Positions 516 to 11,084 of a stretch of DNA of 64,000 nucleotides are shown here, one piece after another (the first letter of the stretch is position 1; each line of letters starts with the position of its first letter). The stretch lies in contig NZ_CP047941.1 in the NCBI RefSeq assembly GCF_014279815.1, forward strand, positions 2,480,001-2,544,000, written 5' to 3'. The position numbers and the translations under genes were made by a program. This stretch comes from Synechococcus sp. NOUM97013 (GTDB taxonomy: Bacteria; Cyanobacteriota; Cyanobacteriia; PCC-6307; Cyanobiaceae). The notes beneath the pieces were generated by a model, which was given only the letters and a program-made list of their open reading frames with translations, ran no database searches and had not been told where the DNA came from.

Positions 516-1193
516 CTATCCAGCCATCAAACGGTTCAAGCGTGGCAGCTCGGTGAACGAATCACGCCACTCTTGAACCCAAAGCTCTTGGCTGCGTTCG
601 TACACACGCATCAATTCTTCGACAGCAGCATCACGAAAGTCGACGCGTAAATCCAAAAGTGGAAAGGCGGCTTCACCACTGACCTGAACCGCAGCCGATG
701 TGGATGTTTCAGAACGATGGTCACCGCCTGCGGCTTCACCTGCCTGTAGAGCCAACATCAATCGCCTACCCAATTTCCATGTCGGGTCGCTGTTGAGAAA
801 TCCCTCCTCGATGGCTGCAAGCACCTCTTCTCCGACCAGGTAATTCCCTGCCACCGAAAGATTTAAGTGATGGCGGTGGCCAGCCCAGCCACCACAGGAT
901 TGACCAGTCCAACAGGCTGTCCGACCTGCGGAATCAATGAGATGAAACTGACGCTGATCGCGGTGGGGATCATCGGCAAGCAGGCTGCTGAGCACCCCAT
1001 CGGCATCGGCACTTTGTTCGAGCCGTTCCAGACCACAGATCCCGAGATAGGGATTGGTGTGTGCCTGCGTGGCCACAGCACCGACACCAGAACGAATGTG
1101 AGGAACAGTGGATCCAACTGCTAAGTGACAGGTCGCCACGGCTACTCCAAAACGGCCGTTGCTTGGATCTCGGGCAACGATCGAAAAGGTCAT
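516..1193 (-). CDS. DUF1028 family protein (Ntn-hydrolase-like)
   Basis: A 225-residue protein beginning MTFSIVARDPSNGRFGVA, the conserved N-terminus of DUF1028, a family predicted to have an Ntn-hydrolase fold. Later family features include the glycine/valine-rich block with VGAVATQA and the LNLSVAGNYLVG segment. The ATG overlaps the stop of the upstream M20 hydrolase gene (ATGA), so the two are probably translationally coupled; an in-frame upstream start would lie inside that gene and is rejected. It is the last gene of the carbamoyl/ureido cluster. By context it may cleave an amide or ureido bond, but its substrate is unknown. Confidence 0.8.
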   Translation of the reverse strand: MTFSIVARDPSNGRFGVAVATCHLAVGSTVPHIRSGVGAVATQAHTNPYLGICGLERLEQSADADGVLSSLLADDPHRDQRQFHLIDSAGRTACWTGQSCGGWAGHRHHLNLSVAGNYLVGEEVLAAIEEGFLNSDPTWKLGRRLMLALQAGEAAGGDHRSETSTSAAVQVSGEAAFPLLDLRVDFRDAAVEELMRVYERSQELWVQEWRDSFTELPRLNRLMAG

Positions 1194-2515
1194 GTCAGCG
1201 CACAATCGAGCCGCTGAATGGTTTCCAGCAAGACGGCCGTGCCATCCACACACTGGCGGTCACTGGTGAATTCAGCCGCTGAATGGCTGAGACCATCTCG
1301 ACTGGGAACAAAAATCATGCCCATCGGCCAGCGACGGCCAATCTCTTGGGCATCGTGGCTGGCGCGACTCGGAAGGCCGCTCCAGTTCAAGCCGAGATCC
1401 GTCGCCACGGACGCGATCGTTGACATCACCATGGCAGAAGCAGGAGTCGGCTCCACCTGGAACTGGGGCTCCAAGCGAATCGGGCATCCCGTCGCTGTGG
1501 AGATCCGTTCCAGCTCATCCTCCAGGCTGGAGACCAATTGATCCAGCACAGCTGGGCTGAGATCCCTAATGTCCACCGTCATCGAAACGGAACCGGGCAC
1601 CACGTTGGCGGCATTGGGCCAAACCTCCAGTCGACCCACCGTCGCCACAGGATCTCCTGGATGCTGTTGGGCGATGGACTCCACCGCGAGCACAACTCTG
1701 GACGCTGCAGCCAAGGCGTCCTTGCGCAAGGTCATCGGCGTCGTGCCGGCATGGTTGGGCTGACCCTCCACCTGAATGGAGAAACGCCGCTGACCAACGA
1801 TGCCCTCAACAACACCAATGGCGTCACCACGATGCTCCAGAACAGCCCCCTGCTCGACGTGCAACTCCAGAAAAGCAGCAACCGCATGATCCGGGCGACA
1901 GGCAGACGCCAATGCAGGCCAGTGCCCACCAATACGCTTCAGATTGACGTCAATCGGCTCACCATTGCTGGTGGCATAGGCCGTCGGCTCCGCAGACGCC
2001 GTTCCAGCCATGCCCTTGCAGCCAACCATCGTCGACTCTTCGTCGGCAAATGCGACCACCTCAAAGGAATGGCGTAACTGAAGGCCTGCATCCTTAAGGG
2101 CTCGTGCAACCTCAAGACCGGCCAACACCCCCAGCACCCCATCAAAGCGACCGCCGGTTGGCACCGTGTCCAAATGGGAGCCCGTCATCAGCACGGGCAA
2201 CGCAGGATCCTGCCCTTCCAAGCGACCGATCAAATTGCCAGCGGTATCAACGCGAACCTGCATGCCGGACTCTTTCATCCAGGCCGCTAACTGATCACGA
2301 CCCTGCACATCGGTCTCACTGAAACCGCGCCGACAAACACTGCCATCCGCTTGCAGGCCGATGGAGGCCATCTGATCGAGCGTTTGAAGCAGACGACCAC
2401 GGTTGGGAATCACCGCTGTTTTCCGAACCGCCGCCTCCACTGGAGTGACTTGTGGACGATTGGAAAGCAGTTGTGGCAACGATCGTGACCTTCGGTTCAA
2501 ACCAAAGGTCAGCAT
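1190..2515 (-). CDS. M20 family Zn hydrolase (allantoate amidohydrolase / N-carbamoyl-L-amino acid hydrolase type)
   Basis: Metal-site motifs of the AllC / beta-ureidopropionase / N-carbamoyl amino acid hydrolase branch are all present: GSHLDTVPTGGRFDG (His and bridging Asp), ADEES (Glu pair), LELHVEQG (His), and the C-terminal SHDAQEI then MIFVPSRDGLSHSAAE (last His). These enzymes hydrolyse ureido groups of N-carbamoyl amino acids or allantoate with release of ammonia. The length, about 441 residues, is normal. I chose the ATG at 2515 over a TTG five codons upstream. It sits in a row with a carbamoyltransferase-like gene and an asparagine synthetase-like gene, which fits an N-carbamoyl intermediate. 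The exact substrate is not readable from sequence. Confidence 0.85.
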   Translation of the reverse strand: MLTFGLNRRSRSLPQLLSNRPQVTPVEAAVRKTAVIPNRGRLLQTLDQMASIGLQADGSVCRRGFSETDVQGRDQLAAWMKESGMQVRVDTAGNLIGRLEGQDPALPVLMTGSHLDTVPTGGRFDGVLGVLAGLEVARALKDAGLQLRHSFEVVAFADEESTMVGCKGMAGTASAEPTAYATSNGEPIDVNLKRIGGHWPALASACRPDHAVAAFLELHVEQGAVLEHRGDAIGVVEGIVGQRRFSIQVEGQPNHAGTTPMTLRKDALAAASRVVLAVESIAQQHPGDPVATVGRLEVWPNAANVVPGSVSMTVDIRDLSPAVLDQLVSSLEDELERISTATGCPIRLEPQFQVEPTPASAMVMSTIASVATDLGLNWSGLPSRASHDAQEIGRRWPMGMIFVPSRDGLSHSAAEFTSDRQCVDGTAVLLETIQRLDCALT

Positions 2516-2574
2516 CGCCCGAGTTTCCAAAACCTCCTGTCGTCAATGCAACGGTTTAACGCTGATCAAAGAAT

Positions 2575-4599
2575 TCAAACGGGCATCAACACGCGCCAGC
2601 CCAACCGCTCCGCTTCCTCACGGGCCTGAGCAGGGACATCAGCAGCCACGAACATGCGATGCAACATCTGCACCCCCAGCAGATGGTTGATCACAGCATC
2701 CATCTGAACACGTTCAGAATCCGTGGTCTGCGGGTCGTCATGGCGATCAAAGAGAGCCCGCACACCCTCTTTACTCAAGAGTCCAGCGGCATCAATCGCT
2801 TCATCACTGAGATAGTCGTCCGCCAGCTGTTTCATCTGCGCCCACTTCTCCGGCTCGGTGTGGGCGGGTGGCGCCATGAAGGCAAACTTCTCACGCTTGT
2901 AGAGCACCTCTGGAAGCAGCCCAGCCATCGCTTCCCGCAACACGTATTTCTCTGTTTTGCCTTTGATCCGCAATTCCGGTGGAACCTGCACCGCTGCGGC
3001 GGCGAGATGGTGATCCAGGAATGCCGGACGGGCCTCCATGGAATTGGCCATGTCGACCCGGTCGCCACCCCAGGTGAGGATCTGGCCCTCCAGCATGGTC
3101 TTGATCCAGACGTACTGGGCCTTGTCCAAAGCGTGGCGACCCTCCAGCTGATCGGGGTCAAGCTGTGCGGCAATCGCCTGGCCAGGCGAGTAGCCCTCAA
3201 GCGCCTGGCGGCGAGGCTCCGCCAGCAATGCCGGAACGAGCGGAGCACAGGCAAGCCAGGGTTGCAGGCAACTCGGAGTGAAACCCACCACGGCCTCCAG
3301 AGCAGGATCATCCACTTGATCGGCTGCCAACATCGCTCCCTGCACCAGAGCATTCGACTGCTGCAACAGCAACTCCCAATTGCTGCGTTCCTCCTGCGGA
3401 AGATCATCAAGACCGTGCAGAAACATGTCGCGGCGAAACGCGGGGTAGCCGCCGAACAACTCGTCGGAGCCTTCACCCGTCATCACCACCTTGTAGTCCA
3501 CGTTGTTGACGTGGCGACTCATCAGAAATTTGGCCACCGCCAGGGTGTTGTAGATCGTGCGCTCCGTATGCCAGATCGTGCGCTCCATGAATCCATAGAG
3601 CTCTCGCCCTGACAGGCGCATCACATCCTGTTCCGCTCCCGTGGCTTCCGCCATTTCCTGGGCGATCGGTGATTCGTCATATCGGGCATCATCAAAACCG
3701 ATGGTGAAGGCCCGCACCGGGGACTGACTCACCGCAGAGGCCAGACCAAGGATCGAGCAACTGTCGATCCCTCCGGACAGGTAGCAACCCACCGGCACGT
3801 CAGCGACCATGCGCAGTTCCACCGCTTCCAACAGCGCTGCGCGAACGGCCGCCACGTGATCCGCTTCGCTCAGGCTTTGATCGCGCTCATCTTTGCGCGG
3901 GAAATTCAGATCCCAGTACGACCACTCGGACACCTCGAGCTGACCTTGGGCACGCTGCACCTTCAGCACATGCCCCGGCTTCACCTGATGAACCCCTGCA
4001 AACGCGGTGGTGCCAGGCACCATCGTCTGCATCAGCTGATGGAACAATCCTTCTGAGGTGAAACGCCGCTCCACCGCAGGATGGGCAAACAACACCTTGA
4101 GCTCCGAACCGAACACCAGTCCCTCGGAGGTCATCGCCCAGTACTGGGGCTTGATCCCGAAACGATCCCGCACCAGATACAGACAATCCTCTTCGCGATC
4201 AAATAACGCGAAGGCGAACTCCCCGCGTAACAAGGGCAGGGTCGCGTTCAAGCCTTGACGCTGATACAGCCGCAACAGAATCTCGGAATCGCTCTTGCTG
4301 CTGAAGCGAACTCCCTGAGCGGTGAGATCGGCGCGAATGCGCTGGAAGTCATAGAACTCACCGTTGTGGGCCATCAACACCTCACCGTCATCGGTGAGAA
4401 AGGGCTGCCGCGCCCTTGACTCGTTCAGATCAATGATCGACAGACGGGCATGGCAGAAGCCAACCCCGGCCTGATCGAGACACTCCACCCCGAATCCATC
4501 CGGCCCGCGATGGGACTGGATCGCTGCCATGTTGACCAGCAGCTGCCGATCGACCGTCTGGTCACGATCAGCGTTGAACACACCTCCGATGCCGCACAT
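2575..4599 (-). CDS. asnB: asparagine synthetase (glutamine-hydrolysing) family, AsnB-like
   Basis: A 674-residue class II glutamine amidotransferase. Cys2 (MCGIGG), SHRGPDG near 29-35 and NGE at 79-81 form the glutaminase site. The synthetase domain has the ATP pyrophosphatase loop LSGGIDS at 274-280. Family members transfer ammonia from glutamine to an adenylated carboxylate, classically aspartate. Both active sites look intact, so it should be a working amidotransferase. It lies nine bases downstream of the carbamoyltransferase-like gene, so it may amidate a product of this cluster rather than serve general asparagine supply. The homology is certain; asparagine as product is only the default reading. 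Confidence 0.85.
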   Translation of the reverse strand: MCGIGGVFNADRDQTVDRQLLVNMAAIQSHRGPDGFGVECLDQAGVGFCHARLSIIDLNESRARQPFLTDDGEVLMAHNGEFYDFQRIRADLTAQGVRFSSKSDSEILLRLYQRQGLNATLPLLRGEFAFALFDREEDCLYLVRDRFGIKPQYWAMTSEGLVFGSELKVLFAHPAVERRFTSEGLFHQLMQTMVPGTTAFAGVHQVKPGHVLKVQRAQGQLEVSEWSYWDLNFPRKDERDQSLSEADHVAAVRAALLEAVELRMVADVPVGCYLSGGIDSCSILGLASAVSQSPVRAFTIGFDDARYDESPIAQEMAEATGAEQDVMRLSGRELYGFMERTIWHTERTIYNTLAVAKFLMSRHVNNVDYKVVMTGEGSDELFGGYPAFRRDMFLHGLDDLPQEERSNWELLLQQSNALVQGAMLAADQVDDPALEAVVGFTPSCLQPWLACAPLVPALLAEPRRQALEGYSPGQAIAAQLDPDQLEGRHALDKAQYVWIKTMLEGQILTWGGDRVDMANSMEARPAFLDHHLAAAAVQVPPELRIKGKTEKYVLREAMAGLLPEVLYKREKFAFMAPPAHTEPEKWAQMKQLADDYLSDEAIDAAGLLSKEGVRALFDRHDDPQTTDSERVQMDAVINHLLGVQMLHRMFVAADVPAQAREEAERLGWRVLMPV

Positions 4600-4608
4600 A
4601 AGCCTGAT

Positions 4609-5724
4609 TCAGACGACGTCCATGACCCGGTCAGCCCGGTCCACCATGCAGGTGAGCAGAGCCATGCGCAGAAACACCGCTCCCCGTGCCTGGCTGAAAT
4701 ACCAGTTCTGAGGTGTTTCATCCATGCAGGTGCTCAGTTCGGCTCCGCGGGCCAGCGGATGCAGAACGATCGAGCCATCTTTGTAGGGCAGATCCTTGGT
4801 CAACCGAAACTGCGACCCATGCACCTCGAAACTGTCGCCCACCCAGGCAATGGCATTGATGTAGGTGACATCCAGGTGGGGCAATTCCGTGCGTAAGTCC
4901 GCGCTGCAACGCAGCTTGAGACCGGCCTCCTGGAGCTCCTCAAACTGGCCGGCATCAAACAACGTGTCTTCAGGATCCGCATCAGCGGAATGAATCACCA
5001 CAACCTCCTCAACGATCTGAGGGAACTTGGCCAGGATCCTGAGCAGCGAACGCACCGTGCGCATCCTGGACGGCACACCGATCACGCCGATCCTGATCCT
5101 CTGGTCCGCAGCAACGACGAGCTGGGCCAGGCTCGGACGCCACTTGAAAATCGTGAATAGATCCGCCATTGCCTGCGTGGGGTGCTCATCCAGGCCATTC
5201 CCGGCATTGATGATCGGAATGCGCAGGGTTTGCGACATGGCATAAACCGCGCCGGGATCGCTGTCCCGCAGCACCACGCAGTCGCCGTAGTTGTTGAACA
5301 TGTGCGCCACATCCTCGAGCGATTCGCCTTTGGCAATCCCCGTGGTGGAGCGGTCTGTGATGTTGATGGAGCTGCCACCAAGCCGATGCCAGGCACTGTC
5401 GAATGACAAGCGCGTGCGCGTGCTGGGCTCGTAGAAGGCGTTGATCAGAATCTTGCCCTGCAGCGGCATGTTGTGGGTGATGTAGCGCTCGGGATTGCTC
5501 TCGTACTTCGCCGCCAGCCGAAACAACTGCAGCAGCGTTTGCGGACGAAACGACTGGATCGAAACCACGTGCTGATCCACCAGATCGAGCAGCGGTTCCG
5601 CCTCCTCCTCAATGCAGGTCAGCAGCGACTGAGGCTGCGTACGGCCATAGACATCTGGGCCGAGAGGGTCGAACCGCATGGGCGCCTCCTCAACCTCCAG
5701 AGCAACTTGTTTGGTATTCAACAT
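4609..5724 (-). CDS. aspartate/ornithine carbamoyltransferase superfamily protein, atypical PyrB-like
   Basis: A 371-residue transcarbamoylase fold. Carbamoyl-phosphate residues are kept: STRTR at 101-105, the 80s-loop lysine in IAKGES near 132, Arg153, HPTQ at 181-184. The RTVRSL segment near 222-227 matches the region of E. coli PyrB Arg167. In the second domain, the place of the PyrB TRVQ motif (Arg229 and Gln231, which bind aspartate) reads INAIAW at 289-294, and HPLP has become HPLARGAEL. The enzyme therefore probably carbamoylates something other than aspartate. The ATG at 5724 has a GGGAG five bases upstream; a TTG further up is less likely. It heads the downstream half of the cluster. 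Confidence 0.82.
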   Translation of the reverse strand: MLNTKQVALEVEEAPMRFDPLGPDVYGRTQPQSLLTCIEEEAEPLLDLVDQHVVSIQSFRPQTLLQLFRLAAKYESNPERYITHNMPLQGKILINAFYEPSTRTRLSFDSAWHRLGGSSINITDRSTTGIAKGESLEDVAHMFNNYGDCVVLRDSDPGAVYAMSQTLRIPIINAGNGLDEHPTQAMADLFTIFKWRPSLAQLVVAADQRIRIGVIGVPSRMRTVRSLLRILAKFPQIVEEVVVIHSADADPEDTLFDAGQFEELQEAGLKLRCSADLRTELPHLDVTYINAIAWVGDSFEVHGSQFRLTKDLPYKDGSIVLHPLARGAELSTCMDETPQNWYFSQARGAVFLRMALLTCMVDRADRVMDVV

Positions 5725-5790
5725 CGAGGCTCCCGGGCGCAATCCCGATCAAACGGAACGTGAGCAGCGCCATCCATGTGACTTAAATCA

Positions 5791-5808
5791 CCCTCTAGCA
5801 ACAGAGGG
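5791..5808. repeat. inverted repeat CCCTCT-N6-AGAGGG
   Basis: A perfect 6-bp inverted repeat with a six-base spacer lies in the 143-base gap between the 47-residue membrane protein gene and the carbamoyltransferase-like gene. It is not followed by a T-run on the minus strand, so it is not a standard terminator. It could be an operator or a leader hairpin. Function is inferred from position only. Confidence 0.45.
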
Positions 5809-5835
5809 CAGCGAAGCCAGCAAATCCAGGAGATC

Positions 5836-5853
5836 TTTGGAACTGATTCCAAA
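5836..5853. repeat. inverted repeat TTTGGAA-N4-TTCCAAA
   Basis: A perfect 7-bp inverted repeat with a four-base spacer lies just downstream of the 47-residue membrane protein stop codon, and about 110 bases upstream of the carbamoyltransferase-like start. It lacks a T-run. Together with the second inverted repeat 30 bases away it makes this gap the most likely control point inside the cluster. Confidence 0.45.
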
Positions 5854-5867
5854 TTCAGTCGCAACCA

Positions 5868-6011
5868 CTACCAAACTCGGCCATTGCGCCACTCCACAAA
5901 CCAGATCAGCAGCAACACCACCACCGACAGCGACAGCGCCAGCTGACTGCCCAGCAGCACCAACTCAAACCCCTTAAGGCCGAGTACCACCGCAAACAAG
6001 GAAGTGATCAT
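5868..6011 (-). CDS. small membrane protein coupled to the symporter, 47 aa
   Basis: The ATG overlaps the stop of the symporter gene (ATGA), so it is very likely co-translated with it. The 47-residue product is strongly hydrophobic: LFAVVLGL near the N-terminus, then one long segment (LVLLG...VVVLLLIWFV, about residues 17-39) and a charged tail EWRNGRVW. No family was recognised. Its size, hydrophobicity and coupling suggest a small accessory subunit of the transporter. It is too short for many gene callers. Confidence 0.65.
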   Translation of the reverse strand: MITSLFAVVLGLKGFELVLLGSQLALSLSVVVLLLIWFVEWRNGRVW

Positions 6012-7435
6012 GCGTCCTCCTTCAAGAGTGCGAAATCAAACCGTTCCGGCCAAAAGCGGCTGCCCACCAGCATCACCAGCGCAGAAATGGCTGCTGAAAA
6101 CACCGCAGCGCAGTAGGGCGCAATCAACACGTAAGCGGCCAGGCCCACCAGGCTTCCACTGAGCATCGCCAGGATGGCTGCTCCACGGCTGGCGGAGCGC
6201 CAGTACAAACCGCAAGCCACCGGCCAAACGGTTGACGCCACCAGAGCACCGGTGAAGAACAGCACCGATGCCAGCGAATCCAGCCGCGGCCAGGACAGCG
6301 CCAGGGTGACGACGGCCAATCCCACCACCATCAGCCGCGCCGCTTGCTTGAGCTGCAGATCACTGGCCTGGGGCCGCAACAGCCGGAAATACACATCTTC
6401 CGCCAACAGATCGGCGGTGGATGCCAGCAACGAATCCAAGGTGGAGGTGAGCGAGGCAAACACCACCACAAACACCAGGGCCGCGCCGCCCGCCCCGAGC
6501 AGATCAGCTGCCATCACGGGGAACACCATGTTCACCTGCTCGAGGGGCAACGCACGGGCCAGAGCCACCAGGCCGATGGAGCCCGTCACCATCGGCACAC
6601 TCATCCAGGCGATGCCCCCCAACACGAACGAGGTCATCACCACCGAGCGCCGACTGGCGAAGACCCGGGACCACCAGATGTTGTTGTGAAACACCTCTCC
6701 CATCGAAAAAAGGGCGGAATTCCAGGCGATCAACAAACCCGCCGGCAGCAGCAGATCAAGCCGATCGGGATGCCGATTCACCAGGGCGGCATGCACATCC
6801 GGCATCGGGAACTGGCGAAACGCCAGAACAGCCACCACCGCCAGCAACACCATGATCAACAAGGACTGAATGAAGTCCGTGCCGATCACCGCACGCATGC
6901 CGCCATACAAGGTGTAAAGGGTCGCGACGCCGATCACGACCACCATGCCGACGTGGTAATCGAAGCCTGAAAGCGCTTGCAGCAACAGGCCCGCACCCAT
7001 CGCCTGGGTCATCAGAAAACCCAGGGTGTAGATGGCCGTGATCACCATGAACACCCACCAGGCCAACCGGCCGTAGCGCAGGCGAATGAAGTCGCCGCTG
7101 GTGCGCCCGTTGGGCATCAACTGCTTGATCCGCGAGGCCAGGGGAGCGAACAGGATCAAGCCCAACCCGGCTAGGGCATAGCTGAACATCCCCCAGAGCC
7201 CGGTCTTGTAGCCAAACTCCGGAGCCAGCAAGGTGGTGTTGCCGGTCACCCAAGAGGCCATCAACGTGGCCGTGCTCAAGGCCAGGCCGATGTTGCGGCC
7301 AGCCAGCATGTACTCATCGGCATCACCCTTGCCCCGTCGCCCCCAGGCCACACCCAGGGCGACCCAAAGCACAGAGAACAGAACCACCAGAGCCCAAGCG
7401 ATGCCAGGGGCTAAGAACGGAGTGCTTCCAGCCAT
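6008..7435 (-). CDS. sodium:solute symporter (SSS family)
   Basis: A 475-residue inner-membrane protein with about 13 hydrophobic helices. Hallmarks of the SSS family are GRNIGLALSTATLMASWVTG near residues 46-65 (unwound first core helix) and the glycine-rich YTLYGGMRAVIGTDFIQ segment around 176-192. The family uses the Na+ gradient to import amino acids, urea, sugars, vitamins or carboxylates; the substrate is not evident here. It overlaps small membrane-protein genes on both sides by one and four bases, and shares strand with the carbamoyl/ureido enzymes. It probably imports the substrate of that pathway. Confidence 0.85.
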   Translation of the reverse strand: MAGSTPFLAPGIAWALVVLFSVLWVALGVAWGRRGKGDADEYMLAGRNIGLALSTATLMASWVTGNTTLLAPEFGYKTGLWGMFSYALAGLGLILFAPLASRIKQLMPNGRTSGDFIRLRYGRLAWWVFMVITAIYTLGFLMTQAMGAGLLLQALSGFDYHVGMVVVIGVATLYTLYGGMRAVIGTDFIQSLLIMVLLAVVAVLAFRQFPMPDVHAALVNRHPDRLDLLLPAGLLIAWNSALFSMGEVFHNNIWWSRVFASRRSVVMTSFVLGGIAWMSVPMVTGSIGLVALARALPLEQVNMVFPVMAADLLGAGGAALVFVVVFASLTSTLDSLLASTADLLAEDVYFRLLRPQASDLQLKQAARLMVVGLAVVTLALSWPRLDSLASVLFFTGALVASTVWPVACGLYWRSASRGAAILAMLSGSLVGLAAYVLIAPYCAAVFSAAISALVMLVGSRFWPERFDFALLKEDA

Positions 7436-7551
7436 CAGTCAGCCCCCCGATCACGCCAATGCAGGTGGCCGCGCACAATCATCACCACAGTCGACACTGT
7501 GACCAGTGCGCCAAGGGCGAAGATCAATCGCGCCCAGAGCAGTTCATTCAA
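7435..7551 (-). CDS. possible small membrane protein upstream of symporter, 38 aa
   Basis: An open frame ends in TGATG, sharing one base with the symporter start codon. The only start in the short open stretch is a TTG. It would encode about 38 residues with one hydrophobic helix (LIFAL...VVMIV) and a basic/acidic tail RGHLHWRDRGAD. No Shine-Dalgarno sequence is visible. The tight overlap and single-helix character mirror the small gene on the other side of the symporter. The reality of this gene is less certain than that of the downstream one. Confidence 0.4.
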   Translation of the reverse strand: MNELLWARLIFALGALVTVSTVVMIVRGHLHWRDRGAD

Positions 7552-7729: not shown

Positions 7730-9229
7730 ATGCCGGTCCACCAAGGTTTCGGGATGTTCACCGACTACAAACCCTCGGTCGGCTACGACGAATATTTTTG
7801 CAGCAGCACGGCATCGCCCAGGGCAGACCTAGCGCCTCTGCTCTCATCTCTCGGCCAAATGGGGTTGCAGGAACTGAACCGCAACCATGCTTCCGCGAGC
7901 CACCTGCTGCGTCGATTGGGCGCCACCTTCCGGCTGAATGATTCCGGACTAAGCGGCAGTGAACGCATCCTTCCCTTCGATCCACTGCCGCGGTTGATCA
8001 GCCGCGGTCAGTGGCAGCGCCTAGAGCAAGGCCTGCTGCAGCGACTGGAAGCGATTGACTGCTTTCTGGCCGATATCTACGGGCCCCAGCAGATCCTCAA
8101 CGACAAGGTGATTCCCAGGGAGGACGTGGAAAGCTCCTCGGGATGGCGACCACAACTGCAGGGGATCCACCTGCCGCTGAACCGTTGGTGCCACATCTCC
8201 GGACTGGATCTGATCCGTGATGGGGAAGGCACCTGGCGCGTCTTGGAAGACAACCTGCGCTGTCCCTCCGGCGTGGCCTACTTCCTAGAGAACCGGCGGG
8301 TGATGAAACGGTTGTTCCCCAGTTTGTTTGCGGGACGCACCGTTCAACCGATTGACGACTATCCCTCCCATCTGCTGCGCACGCTTCAGGATCTGGCGCC
8401 CTGGAGTGATGCCCCACGGGTCGTGATCCTGACGCCCGGGGTGTTCAACAGCGCTTACTTCGAACACAGCTATCTGGCGCAACAGATGGGCATTCCCCTT
8501 GTGGAAGGTCGGGATCTGATCTGTGAAGACGGGCGCACCTGGATGCACAGCACCAATGGACGAACCCCGGTGGATGTGATCTACCGGCGCATCGACGATG
8601 ACTTCCTCGATCCGACCGTCTTCCGCAGCGACTCGATGCTGGGCGTTCCGGGCCTCATTGACGTGCTTCGTCAGGGACGGGTCGCCATTGCCAACGCGCC
8701 TGGCACCGGCATCGCCGACGACAAGCTGATCTACGCCCACGTGCCGACGATGATCCGCTACTACCTCGGTGAAGAACCGATCATCGAAAACGTTCCCACC
8801 TACCTCTGTGCCCGGCCCGACGACCGCGCCTACGTGCTGGAGAACCTCGAGCGACTGGTGGTGAAATCGGTGGCAGAAGCCGGTGGCTACGGAATGCTCA
8901 TCGGACCTCAGGCCAGCCGATCGGAACTGGCCGACTTCGACACGAAGATCCGTGCGAATCCGCGCAACTTCATCGCCCAGCCAACCCTTCAGCTTTCCAC
9001 CGTTCCCGCCCTCAGCGACGGGGAGCTTTACCCCTGTCATGTGGACCTGAGGCCCTACGTGCTCCGAGGCAAAAGCAGCTGGGTCAGCCCCGGTGGCCTG
9101 ACCCGTGTCGCCCTCAAACGCGGCTCACTAGTGGTGAATTCCTCGCAGGGCGGGGGCTGCAAGGACACCTGGATCGTCGATGAACAACAGGTGACTGCAA
9201 CGCCACAGATGGAGGCCGTGCCGTGCTGA
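7730..9229 (+). CDS. circularly permuted ATP-grasp protein (DUF404/DUF407 type)
   Basis: A 499-residue protein of the circularly permuted ATP-grasp family. Recognisable parts are YDEYF near the N-terminus, LPFDPLPRLIS around 81-91, the WRVLEDNLRCPSGVAYFLENR stretch near 168-188 (metal and ATP contacts), and VVKSVAEAGGYGML near 382-395. ATP-grasp enzymes make amide or peptide bonds through acyl phosphates. GGAGG lies about seven bases before the chosen ATG. Its stop overlaps the alpha-E gene, and a transglutaminase-like gene follows. This trio is widespread in bacteria and is thought to make or process a small peptide, but no product is known. Confidence 0.85.
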   Translation: MPVHQGFGMFTDYKPSVGYDEYFCSSTASPRADLAPLLSSLGQMGLQELNRNHASASHLLRRLGATFRLNDSGLSGSERILPFDPLPRLISRGQWQRLEQGLLQRLEAIDCFLADIYGPQQILNDKVIPREDVESSSGWRPQLQGIHLPLNRWCHISGLDLIRDGEGTWRVLEDNLRCPSGVAYFLENRRVMKRLFPSLFAGRTVQPIDDYPSHLLRTLQDLAPWSDAPRVVILTPGVFNSAYFEHSYLAQQMGIPLVEGRDLICEDGRTWMHSTNGRTPVDVIYRRIDDDFLDPTVFRSDSMLGVPGLIDVLRQGRVAIANAPGTGIADDKLIYAHVPTMIRYYLGEEPIIENVPTYLCARPDDRAYVLENLERLVVKSVAEAGGYGMLIGPQASRSELADFDTKIRANPRNFIAQPTLQLSTVPALSDGELYPCHVDLRPYVLRGKSSWVSPGGLTRVALKRGSLVVNSSQGGGCKDTWIVDEQQVTATPQMEAVPC

Positions 9230-10218
9230 GCCGGGTCGCCGACTCCCTCTACTGGATCAACCGCTATCTCGAACGGGCCGAAAACATCTCCCGCTTCCTG
9301 GAGGTGAGTGAAGCGATGGCCCTGGATTGCCCGCCAGGCAGCGCTGAACCATGGCTGCCACTGGTGGATGCAACCGGTGACCGCCGCAGCTTCGATCAGG
9401 CCTATCCAGCCGGGACACCACGCGATGTGAGCCGCTTCCTGCTGCTGGATCGCGAGAACCCCAACAGCATCGTGAGCTGCATCGGCATGGCGCGTGAAAA
9501 CGCCCGACAGATCCGGGACGTGATCACATCAGAGATGTGGGAACAGATCAATGATCTGCACTGGAGCCTCCAGGACGGGGAGGCGATCTGGCAGGAACAC
9601 ACACAGGAGCAACTGCGCATCATCCGACGCGGGTGTCAGATCTTTTACGGCATCACCGACACCACACTCAGCCGTGACCTGAGCTGGCTGTTCAGCCAGC
9701 TGGGCCGGCTGATCGAACGGGCAGACAAAACCTCACGCATCCTGGATGTGAAGTACTACCTGTTGCTTCCCACGCCGGAAGAGGTGGGCGGAGTGCTCGA
9801 TGAACTGCAATGGATCACCCTGCTGCGAACGGCCGGTGCTTACCAGATGTATCGGCAGAGCATTCAGCAGGCAATCAACCCTGTATCCGTCGCAGGGTTT
9901 CTCTTGCTCGATCCGATCTTTCCACGCTCCGTGCGTTACTGCCTTCAGGGGATTAATGACACGCTGCAGCAGATCCAGACCCAGCCCGTTCAGGGAGCGC
10001 CCGATGACCTCGACTGCCTACGCGGTCAGCTGCTGGCCCGATGGAGCTACGTGCGCATCGACAACCTGATTGAGGGCGGTCTACATGAAGCGATCGACGG
10101 ACTGCAACAAGATCTCAATCGTCTGCACCAACTGATTCAGAGCCGCTATTTCACCAGCACCGAGCTGCATTCCACCCCTACCGAAGTTCTATGCGCGCCC
10201 GGATCCTTCACCGCCTGA
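9223..10218 (+). CDS. alpha-E domain-containing protein (DUF403)
   Basis: A 331-residue all-helical protein starting MLSRVADSLYWINRYLERAENISRFLE, the typical N-terminus of the alpha-E domain. Conserved blocks such as ARENARQIRDVITSEMWEQIN near 91-111 and LIERADKTSRILDVKYY near 165-181 are present. It starts at a GTG that overlaps the end of the ATP-grasp gene by seven bases. Alpha-E proteins occur almost always beside this ATP-grasp and a transglutaminase-like protease. The biochemical role is unknown. Confidence 0.85.
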   Translation: MLSRVADSLYWINRYLERAENISRFLEVSEAMALDCPPGSAEPWLPLVDATGDRRSFDQAYPAGTPRDVSRFLLLDRENPNSIVSCIGMARENARQIRDVITSEMWEQINDLHWSLQDGEAIWQEHTQEQLRIIRRGCQIFYGITDTTLSRDLSWLFSQLGRLIERADKTSRILDVKYYLLLPTPEEVGGVLDELQWITLLRTAGAYQMYRQSIQQAINPVSVAGFLLLDPIFPRSVRYCLQGINDTLQQIQTQPVQGAPDDLDCLRGQLLARWSYVRIDNLIEGGLHEAIDGLQQDLNRLHQLIQSRYFTSTELHSTPTEVLCAPGSFTA

Positions 10219-11084
10219 CCTATCAATACGCGGCAGCGGTGAGCCTTGGCGAACACCGCCTCTGCCTCAAACCGCGGGCCCAGGGCTTTCAGACCCTGAT
10301 CGAGCATCAGCTCACCGTGACACCTGAACCCCATCAACGTCGGGAACTGCTGGCCGCCAGTGGCGATGAAATTCAACGGCTGATCTTTCTCGGCCACACC
10401 GATCAGCTCCGCTTTGAAGCCTGCAGCCTGGTGGAAACGCGCCCTGCACCGGCACTAGAAGCCTGCTTCAACGGGCTGGAACCTCCTTTGCCTTACCCGC
10501 GCGGCCAACTGAATGTTGACCTTCAAGGAGCACTGGATAGCTGGCTGCCGAATGGTCAGCACGAACCTTCGGTGATCGACCTCACCCAGGAAGCGCTGAT
10601 GGGAAGCAACCAACAGACGCTGGCGTTTCTCAAACAGCTCATGGATTTGATTCAGGAGCGTGTCAAATACACCCAACGCCATGTCGGCCCCGCCTGGCCG
10701 GCGGGCCGAACCCTGCGAGAACGGATTGGATCCTGCCGCGACCTGGCCATGCTGATGGTGGCCTGTTGTCGGGTGGTGGGTCTGCCGGCCCGCTTCGTCA
10801 GCGGTTATCAGCTGCTGGAACCGGCACCCGATCAGTACGACCTGCACGCCTGGGCTGAGATCTACCTCCCGGGCGCCGGATGGCGGGGCTTTGACCCCAG
10901 CGCGGGCGGTGAAGTCACACCGCGCTACGTGGTTCTGGCCACATCATCCAAACCCGAACTCACGGCGGCCGTAAGCGGCAGTTTTAGTGGACCACCCGGG
11001 ACAGCCAGTGAGCTCAGTTGGTCGATCAGCGTGGAGGAGAGCATGGTCAGCGACTGTTCTCCAGCCGTTGTTCATGCCGCCTGA
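10191..11084 (+). CDS. transglutaminase-like protease family protein
   Basis: A 297-residue protein with the N-terminal bacterial transglutaminase-like region (RILHRLTYQYAAAVSLGEHRLCLKPR). The papain-like core follows: GSCRDLAMLMVACCRVVGLPARFVSGY around 181-207 carries the catalytic Cys, and LHAWAEIYLPGAGWRGFDPS around 222-241 carries the His and Asp. It overlaps the alpha-E gene by 28 bases. In this operon type it is proposed to cleave or cross-link the peptide made by the ATP-grasp enzyme. Its 3' end overlaps the convergent cupin gene by 13 bases. Confidence 0.85.
   Translation: MRARILHRLTYQYAAAVSLGEHRLCLKPRAQGFQTLIEHQLTVTPEPHQRRELLAASGDEIQRLIFLGHTDQLRFEACSLVETRPAPALEACFNGLEPPLPYPRGQLNVDLQGALDSWLPNGQHEPSVIDLTQEALMGSNQQTLAFLKQLMDLIQERVKYTQRHVGPAWPAGRTLRERIGSCRDLAMLMVACCRVVGLPARFVSGYQLLEPAPDQYDLHAWAEIYLPGAGWRGFDPSAGGEVTPRYVVLATSSKPELTAAVSGSFSGPPGTASELSWSISVEESMVSDCSPAVVHAA

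Follow-up and report, generated by a model that had tools for sequence, protein, structure and literature searches.

In the osmolyte N-acetylglutaminylglutamine amide (NAGGN), an N-acyl cap and the action of an AsnB-type amidotransferase mask the charges. Carbamoyl-glutamine-amide (CGA), whose two charged groups are both masked, is named as an osmolyte of Ectothiorhodospira marismortui in the accessible part of a review (PMC1224877). Among the matches listed in our literature search, which left most subscription papers and bioRxiv preprints outside its coverage, no gene was assigned to CGA. Here we describe seven consecutive reading frames, all on the minus strand, at positions 516-7551 of a 64,000-nucleotide stretch of Synechococcus sp. 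NOUM97013 DNA (the window), whose genome is a single contig of 2.55 Mb. We infer the substrates, product, direction and osmotic role, and we consider it probable, with a good deal of room for error, that the cluster is an operon for the synthesis, uptake and recycling of CGA.

The frames were read from the sequence and are as follows.

7435-7551, minus strand: tiny1, a single-span membrane protein of 38 aa with a TTG start
6008-7435, minus strand: a symporter of the sodium/solute symporter family (SSS), 475 aa, PF00474 (E 5e-29)
5868-6011, minus strand: tiny2, a single-span microprotein of 47 aa with a C-terminal VW, between the symporter and the carbamoyltransferase
4609-5742, minus strand: the cluster carbamoyltransferase (CT), PF02729/PF00185 (OTCace_N and OTCace)
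2575-4599, minus strand: an AsnB-type glutamine-dependent amidotransferase (AsnB), PF00733 (Asn_synthase) plus GATase, N-terminus MCGIGG
1190-2530, minus strand: an M20 hydrolase of the hydantoinase/carbamoylase family, Peptidase_M20
516-1193, minus strand: a DUF1028 protein, a predicted N-terminal-threonine (Ntn) hydrolase, PF06267 (E 8e-65)

An earlier note on this DNA had listed seven minus-strand genes running from a tiny membrane protein to DUF1028, with several pairs overlapping by one or four bases. All of the frames are present, and the overlaps are 1 base for tiny1/SSS, 4 bases (ATGA) for SSS/tiny2 and 4 bases (ATGA) for M20/DUF1028, with a gap of 9 bases between CT and AsnB. CT, AsnB, M20, DUF1028 and SSS each pass their Pfam cut-offs, and the Pfam scan returned no match for tiny2. 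The start of DUF1028 was set at the in-frame ATG at 1193, which gives MTFSI and lies inside a longer frame (516-1253), while the start codon of CT is uncertain (TTG 5742, ATG 5724 or ATG 5679). A sigma-70 promoter scan found no site, against a mean of 1.9 in shuffles.

In the pathway that we propose, CT would move the carbamoyl group of carbamoyl phosphate onto the alpha-amino group of L-glutamine, and AsnB would use glutamine and ATP to convert the alpha-carboxylate of the carbamoylated product to its amide, so that both amino-acid charges would be masked. One carbamoylation and one amidation of an amino acid give an N-carbamoyl amino-acid amide. DUF1028, acting as a Thr hydrolase (in purple bacteria, an isochorismatase-type Cys hydrolase), would take off an amide, the one made by AsnB, and the M20 carbamoylase would then release the carbamoyl group so that the amino acid is recovered. 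The symporter, with one or both microproteins, may recapture, take up or retain the osmolyte. An N-carbamoyl intermediate modified by the amidotransferase had already been put forward in the earlier note, and it remains the simplest reading, with predicted substrates.

The CT sequence carries much of this argument. The earlier note had recognised that its proposal would fall if the transferase were the only PyrB of the genome. There are in fact two further OTCace genes, one PyrB-like and one ArgF-like, and none of the 17 NCBIfam carbamoyltransferase models matched by CT gives a score that reaches its cut-off; the PyrB model TIGR00670, for example, gives 187 bits against a cut-off of 237. We aligned 112 cluster CT rows (the window and 111 of 114 loci, a length filter having left out L088, L099 and L251) with 24 paralogues, and we use what we take to be E. 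coli PyrB numbering. The carbamoyl-phosphate site is intact in all 112 rows (STRT, the 80s-loop Lys, and the equivalents of Arg105, His134 and Gln137), and the equivalent of Arg167 is kept in every one. The Arg and Gln of the LRLQ motif (Arg229 and Gln231), which we take to bind the side-chain carboxylate of aspartate, are replaced by A/S/T and A/S/V, respectively, in 112 of 112 rows. Both are present in 23 of the 24 paralogues, the exception being the ArgF-like protein of the same genome. The cluster loop reads YIN[A/S/T]I[A/S/V] and is followed by W in 110 rows. A phmmer alignment with the Arabidopsis aspartate carbamoyltransferase (ATCase) agrees with the large alignment on this loop; a three-row alignment gaps it, and the window segment YINAIAWVGDSFE lacks Arg and Gln in either reading. 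Because the carbamoyl-phosphate residues and Arg167 are kept and the pair contacting the aspartate side chain is lost, the acceptor probably has an alpha-carboxylate and no side-chain acid.

The predicted model of CT (mean pLDDT 79, first 34 residues unreliable) matches ATCases with TM-scores, by target length, of 0.80-0.90. In a quick tree, a branch with SH-aLRT 98 sets 39 chosen cluster CT rows apart from the PyrB and ArgF rows, and the ArgF-like row from the same genome is a very long branch. Judged by sequence, CT is a carbamoyltransferase of a new subfamily. An ordinary pyrimidine or arginine carbamoyltransferase that lies by accident beside an ordinary asparagine synthetase would agree with the placement of both proteins within broad families, and the available part of a Kangiella paper names an asparagine synthase, which may be a different gene, as a possible back-up for asparagine synthesis (PMC6000758). 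We nevertheless rejected CT as an ordinary PyrB or ArgF on the basis of the two other OTCace genes, the sub-cut-off scores, the residue loss and the separation from paralogues in the tree. Together with a gene order conserved across two phyla, these findings already contradict the explanation, which is barely credible. A remoter CT-like group (35-37% identity, 233-247 bits) was seen in three proteobacterial genomes (L208, L209 and L210). A cluster-type CT is present as well in one of these genomes, and the short flanks of the three loci showed no partner genes.

The second enzyme has an N-terminal Cys glutaminase domain (MCGIGG) and scores 424 bits against TIGR01536, above the cut-off of 267, but only 301 bits against the NAGGN amidotransferase model TIGR03104, for which the cut-off is 570. 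Its best solved match is the hydroxyamidotransferase 7ylz at 154 bits, with AsnB 1ct9 12 bits lower at 142. It is also the only full-length Asn_synthase match in its genome, a finding that would suit a role in nitrogen scavenging, whereby SSS imports ureido compounds, the hydrolases and a reversed CT degrade them, and AsnB stores the nitrogen as asparagine. An operon that encodes an importer and two hydrolases fits such a scheme, as do the existence of catabolic carbamoyltransferases and the passing of an allantoate amidohydrolase cut-off by M20 (see below). However, AsnB consumes ATP, which points to synthesis, and among solved chains the enzyme is slightly closer to the hydroxyamidotransferase than to asparagine synthetases. 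In addition, the core shared across phyla is CT-AsnB, and 23 of the 37 named proteobacterial loci gave no M20 in the vicinity of CT. We therefore regard nitrogen scavenging as quite improbable.

M20 exceeds the cut-off of the hydantoinase/carbamoylase family amidase model TIGR01879 (401 bits, cut-off 204). Its top model among 28 is NF058540, the N-carbamyl-L-glutamate amidohydrolase ErtE, at 435 bits and below the cut-off of 520, and it narrowly passes NF006771, the allantoate amidohydrolase subfamily PRK09290.1-5 (403 bits, cut-off 399). The allantoate subfamily model is the best model for the M20 of L157 and for four other M20 relatives scanned, and the best solved match of a purple-bacterial relative is 3n5f, an N-carbamoyl-L-amino acid hydrolase.

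DUF1028 scores 219 bits against PF06267 (cut-off 26). In Ntn hydrolases, an Ntn fold is combined with a nucleophile that is exposed at the N-terminus once Met has been removed. Of 46 loci, 45 encode Thr-(Phe/Tyr)-Ser-Ile immediately after the DUF1028 start codon, which is ATG in 40 and GTG in five; the start in L047 is ambiguous. In a second look at the top 1000 Foldseek chains, the DUF1028 model (mean pLDDT 86) matches 2imh with Z 29, taspase-1 with Z 15.6 and proteasome beta subunits with Z of about 12, although the TM-scores that Foldseek itself gives against proteasomes are only ∼0.4. Many of the fold-match rows begin by aligning residue 2 of the model with residue 1 of the chain. DUF1028 is thus predicted, from its model, to be an Ntn hydrolase with a Thr nucleophile. 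The isochorismatase-family protein is nearest to the biuret amidohydrolase and RutB models, far below their cut-offs, and lies near solved cysteine hydrolases that include N-carbamoylsarcosine amidohydrolase. DUF1028 was found in 46 of the 114 loci, isochorismatase in 20 and both in none (tblastn with one query each, which divergent copies may escape), and isochorismatase seems to take the place of DUF1028 in purple bacteria. Two unrelated hydrolases occupying one slot beside an M20 carbamoylase would suit the recycling of a carbamoylated amide in two steps. The two hydrolases of the operon look like a recycling arm in which the second amidase has been swapped for an unrelated one in purple bacteria.

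The symporter falls below the cut-off of all eight NCBIfam models that it matches, including PutP (TIGR02121, 87 bits, cut-off 515) and PanF (TIGR02119, 79 bits, cut-off 328). SSS lies near CT in 30 of 30 Synechococcus/Cyanobium-like loci and in 37 of 37 named proteobacterial loci; in the 11 phototrophic purple loci, no nearby SSS was found. By script, 71 of 74 SSS loci have a short hydrophobic frame with a C-terminal aromatic residue in the interval that separates SSS from CT, whereas 100 block shuffles gave 1.5 on average and never more than 7, and under a stricter rule the count was 69 against 0.3 in shuffles. One of the loci missed by the script (L121) does have such a frame on a separate look. 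We propose that tiny2 is a small partner of the symporter. A tiny1 homologue precedes SSS in each of the 13 other cyanobacterial loci that carry all seven genes (tblastn).

We then compared the cluster across genomes. In the cyanobacterial family, CT occurs at 62-100% identity in 14 of 101 genomes, our own included, and the next matches are at ∼30%. The earlier note had named co-occurrence in other cyanobacteria as a check on its proposal. In the 11-20 kb stretches around CT that we compared for the 13 other carriers, tblastn found all seven genes, both microproteins included, in 13 of 13, although DUF1028 is inverted yet kept in the cluster in four of them (L040, L041, L044 and L045). As CT recurs in 14 of the 101 family genomes and all seven genes are present in each of the other 13, the set is not a product of chance. 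A wider sample of the phylum gave CT at E 1e-60 or better in 11 of 292 genomes.

A scan of named genomes returned 194 CT relatives, of which the best 80 were used. Among these 80 are 37 proteobacterial loci with CT 58-65% identical, in Kangiella, Idiomarina, Aliidiomarina, Pseudidiomarina, Pleionea, Ketobacter, Kordiimonas and others, and the named cyanobacterial carriers include Prochlorococcus and Synechococcus. Strain RCC307 of the latter carries the cluster (L075). We take Synechococcus, Prochlorococcus, Idiomarina, Aliidiomarina, Kangiella and Kordiimonas to be marine or halophilic in habit. Of the 111 loci with enough flanking sequence, 109 have AsnB as the gene immediately after CT, by script. 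One of the two misses is an artefact of start choice (L099, where AsnB starts at 11073) and the other (L252) is real. SSS, CT and AsnB occur together in all 37 named proteobacterial loci, and Prochlorococcus-like loci have CT-AsnB in 26 of 26 and M20 with DUF1028 in 21 of 26, with no SSS found near CT in any of the 26, where several contigs end early. The core kept across phyla is therefore CT-AsnB, joined by SSS in many lineages, and not all seven genes. The proposal of a carbamoyl/ureido pathway with its own transporter holds for co-occurrence and for a transferase other than PyrB, the two points on which the earlier note had made it refutable.

The Prochlorococcus-like loci (L060-L088) come mostly from single-cell genomes and carry the synthesis genes and usually the hydrolysis genes, with no adjacent symporter found. 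Two contigs of metagenome-assembled genomes are probably misbinned: L060, titled Trichodesmium, has a Prochlorococcus-like cluster, and L053, titled Gammaproteobacteria, has a Synechococcus-like one. In the quick tree, for which a root was not inferred, cyanobacterial CT rows group beside marine proteobacterial rows within the cluster part, a position that suggests transfer of CT between phyla. We rejected plasmid spread of CT and a phage origin of AsnB; the 151 plasmid records and 13 phage records that match are all <60% identical. Mirror-tree distances correlate (r 0.67-0.91), but shared phylogeny was not controlled for and we give them no weight.

The link to CGA itself comes from purple bacteria. 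In one family of these, the high-potential iron-sulfur protein (HiPIP) of genome G700 has 1hpi as its best solved match, at 114 bits versus 44 for the next, and identity to the 1HPI sequence is 100% in G753, 97% in G752, 92% in G748 and 82% in G749. We take 1HPI to be the HiPIP of E. vacuolata, and the match at 100% therefore identifies the genus as Ectothiorhodospira. CT is present in 41 of 47 genomes of this family, each at E 4e-123 or better, and in 11 of 11 that have photosynthetic reaction centres. By comparison, it is present in 25 of 369 Gammaproteobacteria in a class sample (E 1e-60) that itself includes at least three members of the Ectothiorhodospira family, and two of the 25 carriers have only the remote CT-like gene (L208 and L209). 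Since the family genomes are related and not independent, we count the association of CT with Ectothiorhodospira approximately once, at a likelihood ratio of ∼15, and not 41 times. The order M20, isochorismatase, CT, AsnB is found in 10 of the 11 phototrophic genomes, and 10 further genomes have the same four genes, with SSS in seven. In G790 (L252), a lone CT at 8408-9481 lies between lipid A acyltransferase and patatin genes.

Several observations weigh against assigning the operon to CGA. The acceptor is the weakest link: among amino acids that lack a side-chain acid, glutamine is not marked out by any feature of the CT sequence, both product and acceptor were deduced from sequence and not from chemistry, and the names of the M20 models point to allantoate no less than to carbamoyl-glutamate. 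As for the compound, the passages available to us call CGA a minor solute in E. marismortui, a genome survey of phototrophs ascribes it more loosely to purple sulfur bacteria and, in the part available, names no genes (PMC7824335), and a later Raman study, in its accessible part, records no CGA signal, the compound being absent from its reference library. E. marismortui itself was not identified among the genomes, CT-AsnB being present in its genus and family. Reaction centres were found in six of the 369 sampled Gammaproteobacteria and CT in two of these six, G700 among them; because the other four gave no CT, the association depends on one family. Within that family, only a shortened CT frame was matched in G754, one of the 10 phototrophic genomes with the conserved order, and CT in G790 has no AsnB within 19 kb, a wider search for AsnB not having been made. 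In the cyanobacterial family, 87 of 101 genomes, a good number of which are incomplete, gave no such CT, and the 112 CT rows include at least three contigs twice (L042/L070, L043/L075 and L046/L107). The recycling arm is not universal, because the 23 proteobacterial loci noted above are without an M20 near CT and no DUF1028 or isochorismatase gene was found near CT in any of the 37 (tblastn, one query each).

A rival reading keeps the chemistry and role that we propose, with another amino acid as the acceptor. In that case the product would be some other N-carbamoyl amino-acid amide, perhaps one not yet described, or else the enzymes of cyanobacteria and purple bacteria would act on different substrates. 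A CT pocket without ligands for a side-chain acid leaves room for this, as does the reported status of CGA as a minor solute. On the other hand, CGA is a matching known compound in the genus, CT is present in every phototrophic genome of that family, and the top NCBIfam model for the window M20, below its cut-off, is an N-carbamoyl-L-glutamate hydrolase. A different acceptor is, on balance, unlikely, and we prefer glutamine as the acceptor and CGA as the product.

The wider claim is more finely poised. Described in 1991 and attributed to a single purple bacterium, CGA has in our view about an even chance of being a widespread osmolyte of marine picocyanobacteria, including Prochlorococcus, and of Idiomarina, Kangiella and their relatives. 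On that account its pathway would comprise a glutamine N-carbamoyltransferase, a new amidotransferase function and a sodium symporter served by its own microprotein, and DUF1028 would gain a function for the first time. In the passages of the CGA literature available to us, none reports the compound from cyanobacteria, and the accessible parts of PMC5818414 and PMC5231179 contain nothing on it. Pfam assigns no function to DUF1028, a word absent from the literature searched. Picocyanobacteria are major photosynthesisers of the open ocean. If the proposal is true, it would give genes to an osmolyte for which we found none in print, add a nitrogen-rich solute to those of picocyanobacteria, predict a component of dissolved organic nitrogen usable by neighbouring bacteria with the same transporter, and offer testable functions for DUF1028 and for the symporter microprotein family.

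Genes for a circularly permuted ATP-grasp protein, an alpha-E protein and a transglutaminase lie at 7730-11084 on the plus strand, divergent from the operon. They adjoin the cluster in two of the 13 related stretches (L034 and L035) and occur in six named loci (L047, L048, L050, L055, L056 and L059), and were not matched in remoter ones. Given the opposite strand and this narrow distribution, we rejected them as part of the operon. Genes for MarR-type regulators, possibly of the cluster, lie beside it in Aliikangiella (L101, 7209-7745) and Kordiimonas (L121, 6019-6567). Upstream frames of 114-186 aa in five proteobacterial loci match no Pfam family and are possibly not genuine genes.

The enzymes of the operon all come from known superfamilies, and glutamine osmolytes with an N-cap and an amide are themselves a known kind. 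The E. coli ygeW-ygeY cluster, which the earlier note had offered as a partial parallel, also places a carbamoyltransferase relative near an M20 hydrolase, but the likeness is slight. Against the knotted carbamoyltransferase YgeW model (TIGR03316, cut-off 500), CT reaches 27 bits, and we rejected a YgeW-type cluster on that score; we know of no AsnB in ygeW-ygeY. CT shares the fold and the carbamoyl-phosphate site of PyrB, and differs from it in lacking the ligands of the aspartate side chain, in falling below TIGR00670 and in having a separate PyrB-like gene in the same genome. M20 belongs with the hydantoinase/carbamoylase family by TIGR01879, lies below the ErtE cut-off and just above that of one allantoate subfamily, and its substrate is predicted. 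DUF1028 shares its Pfam family and fold with SPO2555 (2imh), and an amidase role is our proposal. The NAGGN system resembles the proposed pathway in pairing an osmolyte with masked charges (for the compound, the accessible part of PMC1224877) with an AsnB-type amidotransferase (TIGR03104), but here the N-cap would be a carbamoyl group supplied by an ATCase-like enzyme, and the cluster AsnB lies below the TIGR03104 cut-off. The closest correspondence is with CGA of E. marismortui, a compound that needs one carbamoylation and one amidation of glutamine and whose genus carries a fitting gene pair.

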